NCBI GenBank assembly: GCA_017857235.1
Contig: JAFMDN010000001.1
Location: 1 to 64,000 of the forward strand
Reading direction: 5' to 3'
DNA from: Methanobacteriota archaeon
GTDB lineage: Archaea; Thermoplasmatota; Thermoplasmata; Thermoplasmatales; GCA-001856825
DNA length: 64,000 nucleotides
The notes under the pieces are model-generated. The model searched no databases, had not been told where the DNA came from, and saw nothing but the letters and a program-made list of their open reading frames with translations. Position 1 is the first letter of the stretch; every line of letters begins with the position of its first letter. Shown piece after piece: positions 12,127 through 23,294 of this stretch. The position numbers were made by a program, and so were the translations under genes.

Positions 12127-13533
12127 ATGGTATTTCTAACTATGTACGATTTTCTGGATGCAAGAATTCTTGACAGAAATGCGATTTATTACAATGTTGA
12201 CATGGAGAAGCTCATGGAAAACGCAGGTGCCGCAGTAGCCAATTTCGCATCAAAATTGGGAAATAAATTTCTTGTAATTGTTGGACCGGGAAATAACGGG
12301 GGAGATGGTTACGTAGCTGCTAAAAACCTGAAAATGATGAAAAAGGATGTACAGATTAAAATATTGTTGGAACCTGAGTCACCCCTTGCTATAAAAAAGA
12401 AACATGAGTGTGAGAAAATTGGAATCCCATTTTACAACAGTGAAAATTATAATGAATTTGATGTTATTATCGATGCCTTATTGGGAATAGGCATAAAGGG
12501 CATTCCAAGAGAGCCTTATTTTTCGGAAATCAATAGAATTAATCAATCCAGAGCCTTAAAAGTATCTGTGGACGTCCCATCTGGATTCCCTTCAGATCAT
12601 TCAGTGAAGGCAGACTTCACTGTTACCATGCAATTTATTAAAAAAGGAATGAATGAATCCAGATGCGGTAAAATAATAGTCGTTGATGTTGGTTTTCCTC
12701 CCGAAACAATATATAACATTGGCCCGGGGGAAATGCTAGCATTCCCTAAAAATTCCCCAGACTCCCATAAGGGGGATAATGGAATTTTGATTGCCGTAGC
12801 GGGATCCACTGAATATTATGGATCTGCTGTCTATACTGTAAAATCAGCATTAAGAATGGGGGTTGATCTTGTTTATTTGTTTACTCCTGTAATGGCTGCC
12901 AATAGGATTTCACCTCATGTTTACGATGTGATAATTAGAGATTCTGGAAGAGAATATTTTGAAATTAGAGCCGATCTCTTAAATATGATCGAGAAAAAAA
13001 ATGTGGGGGTAGCTATAGGTCCTGGATTATCTAAAAATAAAGTAGCATTGGAAAACGCCAAAAATGTAATTCACTTTTCATTGGCTAACAAAAGGCCAAT
13101 AGTAATAGATGCAGATCCCCTCATAATTTCAAAGGATTTCAATTATGAAGGGTTAGGTGTCCTTACTCCCCATCATGGAGAGTTTAGAAATTCATTTGAT
13201 CTAGATCCAACTGAAGAGAATGCTAAGAAAATAGCCAAAGATATTAATGCAGTAATTTTTTTAAAAGGTAAGGTTGACATAATCACCGATGGATATCGTG
13301 CCAAATATAACAAAGAATTCCACCATGAATCTATGACACGTGGAGGGACAGGTGATTTGTTAACTGGAAGTATTGGTGGACTACTATCAAAGGGTGTCGA
13401 TCCATATCATGCTGCGTGCCTTGCCTCATATATAGTAGGAAAATCAGGATTGTTGGCTTTCAAGAAACTTGGGTATTCATACTATACTTCAGAAATACTG
13501 GATAATTATTCAATAGTAATGAATGAGAAATAA
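12127..13533 (+). CDS. nnr: Bifunctional NAD(P)H-hydrate epimerase/dehydratase
   Basis: A 468-residue metabolite-repair enzyme that restores hydrated NAD(P)H. The N-terminal YjeF_N epimerase domain (about 1-205) carries GPGNNGGDGYVAA (53-65). The C-terminal ribokinase-like dehydratase domain (about 210-465) carries TRGGTGDLLTG near residue 403-413. Both catalytic modules are complete. The start may be the ATG at 12127 or an in-frame ATG at 12142. It is followed after 30 bases by the CBS/HPF-like gene. Confidence 0.93.
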   Translation: MVFLTMYDFLDARILDRNAIYYNVDMEKLMENAGAAVANFASKLGNKFLVIVGPGNNGGDGYVAAKNLKMMKKDVQIKILLEPESPLAIKKKHECEKIGIPFYNSENYNEFDVIIDALLGIGIKGIPREPYFSEINRINQSRALKVSVDVPSGFPSDHSVKADFTVTMQFIKKGMNESRCGKIIVVDVGFPPETIYNIGPGEMLAFPKNSPDSHKGDNGILIAVAGSTEYYGSAVYTVKSALRMGVDLVYLFTPVMAANRISPHVYDVIIRDSGREYFEIRADLLNMIEKKNVGVAIGPGLSKNKVALENAKNVIHFSLANKRPIVIDADPLIISKDFNYEGLGVLTPHHGEFRNSFDLDPTEENAKKIAKDINAVIFLKGKVDIITDGYRAKYNKEFHHESMTRGGTGDLLTGSIGGLLSKGVDPYHAACLASYIVGKSGLLAFKKLGYSYYTSEILDNYSIVMNEK

Positions 13534-13563
13534 ATTTAATAGGATGAAATAATCAGAAATCAT

Positions 13564-14673
13564 ATGTTAATGGCAAGCGAAATAATGAGAAGGAAAGTTA
13601 TAACAATAGAGCCTGATGAAACCATTGCAACTGCAATATCAAGAATGATTGAGAACAACATACATCATTTGCCTGTTACTTCATCAAAGAAGTTTTTGGG
13701 CATGATAGGTTTTGATTCATTGTTGAGGAGGTCCGTTATTCCTGTCTCCACAAAAGTTTCAACATTAATGGAATACGGACCTAGGGGAAAGGAAGACTCA
13801 AGTGCAATAGATATTGCAAAATTGATGGTGGATGCCGGGAGAAAAGCAGTTGCCATAGTAGACGGTGATGAAAAATTAATTGGGATAATTACCACCACTG
13901 ATATTATTAAAAATATTTCAAAGATAATTAATCCTTCAGAATACAAAGTAGGGGATATAATGTCAAAAGAACCCATAACGGTAAATGAAGATGATAATGT
14001 TGATCTTGCCATAAAAACCATGAGAGAGATCGATGAATTTTCATTGCCAGTTGTAAATGAGTATGGCAAGCTGACTGGAATAATAAATATTGAAGATTTC
14101 AGCAGAGCTTATTGGCGAGATAAGGAGAAAATGTCTCAGGGCGAGTACTATAGAAACATGGGAAAAATAAAGGTAAAAGATGTTATGGTTCCACCAGTAT
14201 TTTCCAAGGAGGAAGATTCCTTAACTAAATGTTTAAAGCAGATGGATGAAATGAATTCAAAAATATGCGTAGTTGTCGACAATGAATTCAAACCAATAGG
14301 AATATTGACACATTCAGATCTGTTGGATGAGATTGTGAAATTGCAACCACAAGAAGGTGTACTTGTAAACATTTCTGGAATCAATTTCCCAGATTTGGAA
14401 ACTTATGATAGGATATATGAAATCATACAGAGAAGAATTAAGGGATTTGGAAAAATAAATAGATTAACCCCGAAAATACTTAATTTACATTTTGAAGAGC
14501 ATAAGCAGCAGTCTGGTGAGATAAAGTACTCTGTCAGAGGCAGGTTAACCACAGAGTCAAGAACATTTTATGCACGTGCATGGGACTGGGATTTATTTAA
14601 GGCAGTGAGAGAGTTGATGGACGAATTTAAAAGAATGATTGAAAAGGAAAAAGAAAAAAGGTTGGGGGAGTAA
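13564..14673 (+). CDS. Four-CBS-domain protein with HPF-like C-terminal domain
   Basis: 369 residues. Four CBS motifs lie at about 4-58, 64-122, 128-184 and 202-260; CBS pairs commonly bind adenine nucleotides. The last 105 residues (265-369) are not CBS. They predict beta (VLVNISG) - alpha (278-297) - three beta strands (299-341, ending RTFYARAWD) - alpha (342-365, DLFKAVRELMDEFKRMI). This is the order and residue pattern of the ribosome hibernation factor HPF/YfiA. Inference: an energy-sensing ribosome-binding protein. The in-frame ATG at 13570 is an alternative start. It sits between nnr and tldD. Confidence 0.75.
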   Translation: MLMASEIMRRKVITIEPDETIATAISRMIENNIHHLPVTSSKKFLGMIGFDSLLRRSVIPVSTKVSTLMEYGPRGKEDSSAIDIAKLMVDAGRKAVAIVDGDEKLIGIITTTDIIKNISKIINPSEYKVGDIMSKEPITVNEDDNVDLAIKTMREIDEFSLPVVNEYGKLTGIINIEDFSRAYWRDKEKMSQGEYYRNMGKIKVKDVMVPPVFSKEEDSLTKCLKQMDEMNSKICVVVDNEFKPIGILTHSDLLDEIVKLQPQEGVLVNISGINFPDLETYDRIYEIIQRRIKGFGKINRLTPKILNLHFEEHKQQSGEIKYSVRGRLTTESRTFYARAWDWDLFKAVRELMDEFKRMIEKEKEKRLGE

Positions 14674-16053
14674 GTGCATAATCTTGATAATTATCTAAAC
14701 TATTTGAACAGGTACTCAAATTTTTCAGAAGTTTATTTTTCAGGAACATTGGCAAATGGTATAAGCTTTAAAAATGGAAGTTTAAGCCAGGTATCCAGCA
14801 GTAACAGTTCTGGATATGCATTTCGCGCTTTAGACAGATCGATCTCTTTTGGAGCCACCAATGAAGAAGAATGGTCAATCGTTAAAGAACATCTGGATAG
14901 GGTAATAGAAAATTCAAGGGTTCCTGGAAGGAATAAATTGTCAAATGAGGGAGTATTCAAAGATAAATGGGAGGTTGCTGTAAAAAGAAAGATAGAAGAT
15001 ATGGCTTTAGAAGATAAGATTTCCATTTTAAAGGATATTGATCAAATTCTGATTGAAAAGAAAATACCCATGAGGATTCTTTCTATAGCAGATATAAGGC
15101 AAAAAGAGATATTGGTGAATTCAGAAGGGACAGAGATAGAAGGAGACATTTCTAAAGTTGCGTTTTTTGGAGTCATAGGTTATTACGAGAACGGAAACTT
15201 TGAACAGAGGTTCATACAGCTAGGATTTTCGGGAGGATATGAGGCCCTTGAATATTGGGACCTCTTCAATACTATCAGCAATGAAGCTGAAGCTTTAAAA
15301 AGGTCAGTAATTGCTAAATCAATAAATCCTGGTTATTACGATCTGGTGGTTGGGCCTGAAATTTCAGGAATAGTAGCACATGAAAGCGCCGGGCATCCCA
15401 TGGAATTAGATAGAATACTCGGGAGGGAAATGTCCCAAGCCGGTGAATCGTTCATTAAGTTTCAAGATATGGGGAAACAGGTAGGAAGCCAACATGTTAA
15501 TGTTGTTGATGATCCTACTATTGAGCACAGTTATGGATACTATAAATATGACAGGGACGGCGTCAAGGCGAAGAAGAGATACTTGTATAAAAATGGACTA
15601 ATAAATGAATTTTTGAGCAACAGGGAAAGTGCTGGTAGAGTCAATCTTAAAAGCACGGCTGCCTCTAGAATATCGGAGTGGGATAAAGATCCAATTCCTA
15701 GGATGAGTACTACCTTCATAGAACCAGGAGAATACAGTTTAGAAGAGTTGATAGAGGATGTCAAACTTGGTATTTATATGAAAAGCTACAATGAATGGAA
15801 CATAGATGACATAAGATTTAACGAGAAATACGTCGGGCTTGAAGCTTATATATTAGAGAATGGGAGAATAGGAGAACAAATTAGAAGACCTACACTGGAA
15901 ACAACCACAATTAAATTCTACAGTTCTATTGATGCTGTTGGAAAGGATCTTAAATTTTTTGCCGGAACTTGCGGAAAGGGGGATCCCATGCAGGGTGTAG
16001 ATGTTTGGATGGGTGGCCCGCATGCAAGACTCAGGAATATTTATATGCGGTGA
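14674..16053 (+). CDS. tldD: TldD metalloprotease subunit
   Basis: 459 residues; the catalytic half of the TldD/TldE protease. The zinc motif H236-E-S-A-G-H241 (VAHESAGHPMELD) is intact, and the conserved Cys region FAGTCGKGDPMQG lies near the C-terminus. In bacteria the pair trims modified peptides such as microcin B17. The GTG start directly follows the stop of the upstream gene, with a GGGGGAG ribosome-binding site. TldE follows after 5 nt. Confidence 0.93.
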   Translation: MHNLDNYLNYLNRYSNFSEVYFSGTLANGISFKNGSLSQVSSSNSSGYAFRALDRSISFGATNEEEWSIVKEHLDRVIENSRVPGRNKLSNEGVFKDKWEVAVKRKIEDMALEDKISILKDIDQILIEKKIPMRILSIADIRQKEILVNSEGTEIEGDISKVAFFGVIGYYENGNFEQRFIQLGFSGGYEALEYWDLFNTISNEAEALKRSVIAKSINPGYYDLVVGPEISGIVAHESAGHPMELDRILGREMSQAGESFIKFQDMGKQVGSQHVNVVDDPTIEHSYGYYKYDRDGVKAKKRYLYKNGLINEFLSNRESAGRVNLKSTAASRISEWDKDPIPRMSTTFIEPGEYSLEELIEDVKLGIYMKSYNEWNIDDIRFNEKYVGLEAYILENGRIGEQIRRPTLETTTIKFYSSIDAVGKDLKFFAGTCGKGDPMQGVDVWMGGPHARLRNIYMR

Positions 16054-16058
16054 TATTT

Positions 16059-17360
16059 ATGGATGCAGTAGAAGCACATGAATTTATAAAAAAATATGAT
16101 TTCGAAGAGGTAATTGTTAGAAAATTATCAACAAAAACACAGCAAGTTAAATTTTCAAACAATGAAATAGATATAACCAACAATTGGGATGAAACCGGCT
16201 TTGATATATATGTGACCAAAGGTAGAAAAATCTATAATTTCGATGTAAAGAATGAAAAAGATTTGGAAAAAAGTGTGATTAATGCGGAAAAGGCTTTAAG
16301 GCTTTTAGAAGACAATCCTGATTATTTTAAAATAAATTCTGAAAAATATCAATATAGAAGTAGGTCTAACCGAATTATTAAAATTTCAAATTTCGACATA
16401 TCTCAATTTACCAAAGATTTCCTAGAGGACAATATAAAATTCGCAAAAAGAATAGGGGGTACGATTTATAAAAAAAGTATGGAGCTTGAAGTCGTGACAA
16501 ATTACAATAATTTTAAGGATTTAAATAAATCAATAGAATTTAATGTGAGAGCATTCAATGAAAACGATATTCCTACACAGCAATCTTTTGCAACATCCCA
16601 TGATGATGATCTGGAAAATATTTACAAAGTTGGTGAAGAATTGAGGGATCACCTCAGGATGCTTGGTAAAACTGTACAGGGAAGCGAAGGAACCTATCAT
16701 GCAGTACTTCATCCATTGTTTTTTGCCTCAATAGTTTCTTATACATTGCCCATGGCTTCTGCTTATCAGGTAGATTCTGGAATATCGTTTTTTGCAGGAA
16801 GATTGAATCAGAAGATAGGTTCATCGTTGTTTACCTTGTATGATGATGCAACCGATGATAGCATGTTTGGTTCAAGGATAGCTGATGATGAAGGCGTACC
16901 TACTAAAAAGACTCCAGTAATAGAGAAAGGATTTGTGAAGAATTATCTCCATAATACAAGTACCGCTATAAAATTTAATTCTGAAAGTACAGGAAATGCT
17001 GGAATAATATCACCAACCCCCTGGCAGGTCTCGGTAGAACCAGGTACCGAAGATCCTAAGGAAATGATAGAATCCATAAGGGATGGACTTTATATTGTTA
17101 ACACATGGTACACAAGATTCCAGGACTACAGAGAAGGAATATTCTCCACTATTCCCAGAGACGGAATTTACAGGATAAAAAATGGGGAAGTAATTGAAAG
17201 TTGGACAGGAATGAGAGTTTCTGATTCTCTTATTAATATTTTCAAAGGCATAGAGGGAGTTTCTAGGGAAACCAAGAAGGTTAAATGGTGGGATGAAACA
17301 ATGTATTCAAAAGTTCCCTATGTGTACGTTAGCAAATTGAATATAACGAAAAGCAAATAA
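16059..17360 (+). CDS. pmbA: TldE/PmbA subunit
   Basis: 433 residues from the ATG at 16059, which has GGTGAT at 16049-16054, 4 nt upstream. The open frame extends further back inside tldD, but that part is out-of-frame overlap. It has the TldE fold (GSRIADDEGVPTKKTPVIEKG; STGNAG segment) but no HExxxH zinc motif, as expected for the non-catalytic partner of TldD. Adjacent genes and lengths support a heterodimer. Confidence 0.92.
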   Translation: MDAVEAHEFIKKYDFEEVIVRKLSTKTQQVKFSNNEIDITNNWDETGFDIYVTKGRKIYNFDVKNEKDLEKSVINAEKALRLLEDNPDYFKINSEKYQYRSRSNRIIKISNFDISQFTKDFLEDNIKFAKRIGGTIYKKSMELEVVTNYNNFKDLNKSIEFNVRAFNENDIPTQQSFATSHDDDLENIYKVGEELRDHLRMLGKTVQGSEGTYHAVLHPLFFASIVSYTLPMASAYQVDSGISFFAGRLNQKIGSSLFTLYDDATDDSMFGSRIADDEGVPTKKTPVIEKGFVKNYLHNTSTAIKFNSESTGNAGIISPTPWQVSVEPGTEDPKEMIESIRDGLYIVNTWYTRFQDYREGIFSTIPRDGIYRIKNGEVIESWTGMRVSDSLINIFKGIEGVSRETKKVKWWDETMYSKVPYVYVSKLNITKSK

Positions 17361-22451: not shown

Positions 22452-23294
22452 ATGACTGATACAGTTGAACAGTTTATGACCAAAAAGCCCTTTGTTTTGA
22501 AGCTTCCATCCAACGTCTCAGAAGCTATGAAAATAATGGCCAAAAGAGATGTGGCTGCAGTGCCGGTAACAAATTCTAAGGGGGAATACGTGGGAATAGT
22601 TACCAGGAGGGATATTCTTGAGAATCCAAAAGAAGATGAAATATCCCTCTTGATGAGAAAGGATCTTCCTACATTATCACCAAATGACCCCATAGGAAAG
22701 GCTGCAGAATATTTTGTAAAATTAAGAAGAAGACACCTGCCAGTTATAGAGAATAATAAAATTGTTGGTATATTAACTCCATATGATCTGCTTGATGCCG
22801 TAATAATCAAGAATCCTCAAAAGACTATAAGGCAAGTTATGAATTCCATAGCTATTCCAGTTTATTACAAATCAACTGCTAGAATGGTTGAGAAAATAAT
22901 TAGATTGACAAAAATTACAGCCTTTCCAGTCCTAGACGATGATGGGAAGTTAGTAGGAATTATTACAGAGAGAGATCTCCTGAATGGAGCGAATCTTGAT
23001 GTTAAAACTGTGTCATCACAATTGGGCATAGGAGAGGATGATGATTCTTGGAGCTGGGAATCATTGAGGGATATTTTTACATTCTATTATACGGTTAGGG
23101 ATCTAAAATTACCTGACATAACCATAGATAAAATTATGTCAAAAGAACCAAAAACAATTTTCGAAGGATCTCCAGTAGCTGAAGCAGCCAAAATTATGAA
23201 AAAGAACAAATTCACCCAACTCCCAGTCAATGATCTGGAAAATGATATAAGCGGAATGGTTTATGATTTTGATATAATATCCTCTTTGTTATGA
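22452..23294 (+). CDS. Four-CBS-domain protein
   Basis: 280 residues made of two Bateman modules (about 1-120 and 125-280), with repeated patterns such as AAVPVTNSKGEYVGIVTRRD and AFPVLDDDGKLVGIITERD. No catalytic domain is fused. Such proteins usually sense adenine nucleotides or SAM and regulate a partner. It overlaps glyS by 4 nt (23291-23294), so glycyl-tRNA synthetase or the following gene may be the partner (inference). It is distinct from the CBS protein at 13564, which has an extra C-terminal domain. Confidence 0.88.
   Translation: MTDTVEQFMTKKPFVLKLPSNVSEAMKIMAKRDVAAVPVTNSKGEYVGIVTRRDILENPKEDEISLLMRKDLPTLSPNDPIGKAAEYFVKLRRRHLPVIENNKIVGILTPYDLLDAVIIKNPQKTIRQVMNSIAIPVYYKSTARMVEKIIRLTKITAFPVLDDDGKLVGIITERDLLNGANLDVKTVSSQLGIGEDDDSWSWESLRDIFTFYYTVRDLKLPDITIDKIMSKEPKTIFEGSPVAEAAKIMKKNKFTQLPVNDLENDISGMVYDFDIISSLL

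Follow-up and report, generated by a model that had tools for sequence, protein, structure and literature searches.

HibA is an archaeal ribosome-hibernation factor that was published in April 2026 in a study combining cryo-electron microscopy (cryo-EM) with translation assays and the analysis of a deletion mutant (PMC13324472). The Pyrococcus abyssi protein was found on the ribosomes of stressed cells; its HPF tail occupies the mRNA/tRNA channel of the 30S subunit, and its CBS module takes up three positions on the 50S subunit, one of which places a loop in the peptidyl-transferase centre (PTC). In vitro translation is inhibited by full HibA but not by the CBS module alone, and in Thermococcus barophilus, cells lacking hibA show a lag of 4 h instead of 2 h after stationary phase and about 60% less 70S ribosome (PMC13324472). 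Here, we describe a gene within the first 64,000 nucleotides of contig JAFMDN010000001.1 (assembly GCA_017857235.1, Thermoplasmatales), a stretch that we call the window, and conclude that it is very probably the Thermoplasmatales orthologue of HibA.

HibA was detected in 47% of archaeal genomes, and within its N-terminal module conservation is found mainly among the core residues. It co-occurs rarely with the CM-1, CM-2, CM-4 and CM-5 proteins, whereas the CM-3 type does not exclude it. On P. abyssi ribosomes, HibA is accompanied by SBDS (PMC13324472).

Homology of the window protein to HibA

The best solved-structure match to the window protein is P. abyssi HibA (Q9UYR4/Pab0961; PDB 9SR9-9SRF and 9T7H; PMC13324472), which likewise combines four tandem CBS repeats with a C-terminal HPF/RaiA domain and aligns with it over the full length. 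The match to 9SR9 chain H, an entry listed as HibA-ATP in the data statement of that paper, spans residues 5-362 (E 2.4e-22) and reached E 5.6e-53 with a 34-member family profile. Reciprocally, a search of the archaeon's own genome with P. abyssi HibA returned the window gene first (E 1.2e-22; next match, 1.7e-9). The structure record of chain H names the protein "Dehydrogenase", a label that will mislead transferred annotations.

The N-terminal module consists of four tandem CBS stretches (Pfam, E 4.9e-48; Table 1). When the full protein is scanned, the Ribosomal_S30AE/HPF family (PF02482) matches residues 269-366 at 22.2 bits, just below its cut-off of 23.7; scanning the tail alone gave 25.9 bits, above that threshold, and NCBIfam yfiA matched the tail weakly and below its own cut-off (E 3.5e-5). 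Because 17 of 23 homologous tails independently match PF02482 and any other family is matched by two tails at most, the HPF match is, on the sequence evidence, not a product of chance. A tail profile searched against the PDB also placed HPF/RaiA structures among its best matches, together with 9SR9 chain H and 9L96 chain a, albeit with weak E-values (best 0.005). The latter chain aligns with the window protein in both its CBS and HPF parts. These searches bear out the first-pass annotation, which had read a four-CBS protein with an HPF-like tail from the DNA sequence. The window protein is also the only one found to carry an S30AE domain in its own genome.

The predicted fold of the tail has the beta-alpha-beta-beta-beta-alpha order that had been proposed from the sequence, with strands at residues 267-271, 303-314, 320-330 and 334-341, helices at 278-295 and 344-368, and block values of the predicted local distance difference test (pLDDT) between 67 and 92. 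HibA has two insertions in its HPF domain that are specific to archaea. In profile alignments, HPF strands two and three of the window protein are separated by more residues than in bacterial HPF, as in HibA; the other possible insertion, between strand 1 and helix 1, was judged by spacing only, without structural superposition. Compared with an 89%-identical congener, the gene has nonsynonymous and synonymous divergences of pN 0.065 and pS 0.67, the synonymous sites being near saturation. Since pN is lower in the HPF tail (0.031) than in the CBS part (0.079), this comparison indicates that the HPF domain is under purifying selection.

A weak match of the CBS part to NCBIfam HhpR (57.8 bits, with the cut-off at 520) raises a different reading, in which the protein is a CM-3/HhpR-like transcription factor, a CBS regulator of the standalone type whose tail is unrelated to HPF. 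HhpR (NF053603, CM-3) does share the four CBS domains and a CBS3-CBS4 loop with the window protein, but it is a transcription regulator without an HPF domain, and its relative in the window is encoded by another gene, whose product matches HhpR over the full length (150 bits). An unrelated tail is contradicted by both the family matches and the predicted fold described above, and we regard the chance of this reading as close to negligible.

The HibA architecture also sets the window protein apart from other known ribosome-associated proteins. Bacterial HPF/RaiA/YfiA proteins (PF02482) have no CBS module, occur as standalone or lHPF architectures and are without the extra residues of the archaeal domain. 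Ribosome-bound CBS modules are known in archaea from Dri of Pyrobaculum calidifontis (9E6Q/9E7F) and SriA-D of Methanosarcina acetivorans (9ZNF, 9ZNG, 9ZNI), and these structures rank among the best Foldseek hits to the CBS part of the window protein. However, Dri has two CBS modules and no described HPF domain, whereas the window protein has one module plus HPF, and the matched Sri chains align with CBS domains only. HVO_2384 of Haloferax volcanii (PMC12607858) differs in being haloarchaeal.

The PTC loop and a shifted adenylate motif

In P. abyssi HibA, the PTC loop comprises residues 190-207 (RFKAQYGELAGEKIPPFS), which align with the window protein from K187 onward, and both loops contain a basic pair and a GE motif. 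Across 59 sequences, conservation reaches 81% for K/R187, 86% for K/R189, 88% for G193 and 78% for E/D194. At the position of GEK in many other members, the window protein has RNM; residues 193-199 of the model have pLDDT below 50. By analogy with P. abyssi and T. barophilus, we infer that the window protein would bind, inhibit and preserve ribosomes. Its four-CBS module, with the long loop between CBS3 and CBS4, would reach the large subunit and fill vacant sites such as the PTC, and the protein bound to the 70S ribosome would block translation and protect the ribosome until growth returns.

Several observations weigh against this assignment. The window protein and P. abyssi HibA are about 26% identical, and the functional data on HibA come from a different phylum. 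In the window's own family, the loop motif finishes with RNM-like residues instead of GEK, the loop is about three residues shorter, and the adenylate motif sits in another CBS repeat than in P. abyssi. Moreover, the top 50 Foldseek matches of the whole model were all CBS modules, so that the structure search did not match the tail to HPF; the library held no entries after 8 April 2026, which may explain why 9SR9 was missing.

Of 58 Thermoplasmatota members, 49 have the adenylate motif S/TxxD in CBS2, a repeat that lacks it in P. abyssi, while CBS3 has the reverse pattern (0 of 58, present in P. abyssi). CBS4 carries it in 42 of 58 members and also in P. abyssi, and D252 of this repeat is kept in 57 of 59 sequences. 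Because the motif occurs in CBS2 and not in CBS3, the adenylate site of Thermoplasmatota HibA might differ from that of Thermococcales, with a nucleotide in CBS1/CBS2, possibly also in CBS3/CBS4, that could regulate ribosome engagement in a manner unlike that of P. abyssi; judged from the motif alone, we consider this unlikely.

Such motifs invite the broader proposal that the HPF tail binds the ribosome while the CBS module acts as an energy switch, so that AMP or the loss of ATP alters ribosome affinity and triggers hibernation. The frequencies of D252 and of the CBS2 motif make ligand binding likely, and the CBS module of P. abyssi HibA prefers AMP, with dissociation constants (Kd) of 12 μM for AMP, 65 μM for ADP and 113 μM for ATP and one nucleotide bound, at CBS3/CBS4 (PMC13324472). 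Nevertheless, saturating AMP left the ribosome-bound states of P. abyssi HibA unchanged, ATP added one weakly populated state to a landscape that was otherwise largely the same, and native complexes contained no visible nucleotide (PMC13324472). As the motif layout in Thermoplasmatota is unlike that of P. abyssi, this negative result need not hold there. On balance, the switch appears rather unlikely, and adenylate binding as a switch in the window protein is speculative.

The first-pass annotation had called ribosome dormancy poorly known in Thermoplasmatales and suggested that CBS sensing would couple energy charge to it. Its reading of the fusion as a hibernation factor stands by homology, but the fusion itself is not new, the family having been described as HibA. 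Energy-charge coupling is for the window protein a hypothesis, because AMP and ATP did not markedly change the ribosome binding of P. abyssi HibA.

Distribution in Thermoplasmatota

An HPF domain was found in 212 of 285 genomes of a phylum-wide sample. For the window's order the figure is 52 of 52, counted among the genomes listed, with unlisted genomes without a match taken as outside the order; all are at least 90% complete except the window's own genome, at 89.5%. The full CBS and HPF architecture was present in each of 24 further members from other families. The nearest named relative is the Thermoplasmata metagenome-assembled genome (MAG) KMA_Bin16 (89%), and other Thermoplasmata MAGs, I-plasma included, encode proteins with 40-50% identity to the window protein. 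Two HPF-domain matches per genome occur in G292, G294, G295 and several genomes of family f15, which suggests HibA paralogues in some Thermoplasmatota. Our literature searches found no hibernation study on Thermoplasmatales.

Genomic neighborhood

The cluster nnrDE-hibA-tldD-pmbA (12127-17360, + strand; Table 1) is conserved in the family, and the linkage of hibA to tldD persists in much of the order. Downstream of hibA, tldD was not matched in 20 stretches from other families; within the examined loci, the linkage seems confined to the order. No base separates the stop codon of hibA from the start of tldD, which makes co-transcription of the two genes likely.

Another reading would give the protein a main role in the control of DNA replication or recombination, as a GINS/RadB partner, with ribosome binding secondary. 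Pab0961 and its Thermococcus kodakarensis counterpart TK1186 co-purify with GINS23, Pab0961 also with RadB, and a Haloferax homologue is said, by personal communication, to bind RadA/RadB (PMC3820547). Among the examined neighbors, not all of which are annotated, no replication gene was identified, and the cryo-EM, translation inhibition and deletion phenotype of HibA all indicate ribosomes. A main role in replication or recombination is very improbable, and we favor ribosome hibernation as the function of the HibA orthologue.

The standalone four-CBS protein encoded further downstream is the sole other four-CBS protein found in the genome. Since it matches HhpR over its full length, still below the cut-off of 520 bits, and also matches PH1780 (2YZQ, E 3e-32), it is probably a CM-3-type regulator. 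Contigs C40 and C45 of the genome carry a single SBDS gene and a pair of genes with eRF1_3 domains, the latter with open frames of 416 and 335 aa that are probably aRF1 and pelota. Among these genes there was no evidence of a Balon homologue, a result obtained without a phylogeny. A PADLOC search gave no match.

Table 1. Features of the hibA locus in the window
Feature	Coordinates	Strand	Basis
hibA coding sequence from ATG start to stop codon, 369 aa	13564..14673	+	Open reading frame; full-length match to PDB 9SR9 chain H
CBS1, without S/TxxD adenylate motif (GMIGFDS)	13573..13731	+	Motif alignment
CBS2, TxxD present (GIITTTD113)	13792..13920	+	Motif alignment
CBS3, S/T position of motif degenerate (GIINIED, NxxD)	13948..14112	+	Motif alignment
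CBS3-CBS4 loop, residues 184-203	14113..14172	+	Alignment with P. abyssi HibA PTC loop; model
CBS4, TxxD present (GILTHSD252)	14173..14337	+	Motif alignment
HPF/S30AE tail	14359..14667	+	Pfam, NCBIfam, tail-profile search, homologue tails, predicted fold
nnrDE, 30 bp before hibA; bifunctional NAD(P)H-hydrate epimerase/dehydratase	12127..13533	+	Conserved neighbor within family
tldD, directly after hibA stop codon	14674..16053	+	Conserved neighbor across much of order
Second TldD/PmbA-family gene	16053..17360	+	Conserved neighbor
Standalone four-CBS protein, 280 aa, overlaps glycyl-tRNA synthetase start	22452-23294	+	HhpR and PH1780 matches

Implications

The HibA family itself was already known, and the window protein adds one member to it. 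The PTC-loop motif, the shifted adenylate motif and the nnrDE-hibA-tldD-pmbA cluster appear to go beyond the account in PMC13324472. Together, the conserved loop motif and the shifted adenylate motif make the question of which signal the CBS module senses directly testable by binding. For the Thermoplasmatales, our results now place a dedicated and nearly universal hibernation factor in this order.
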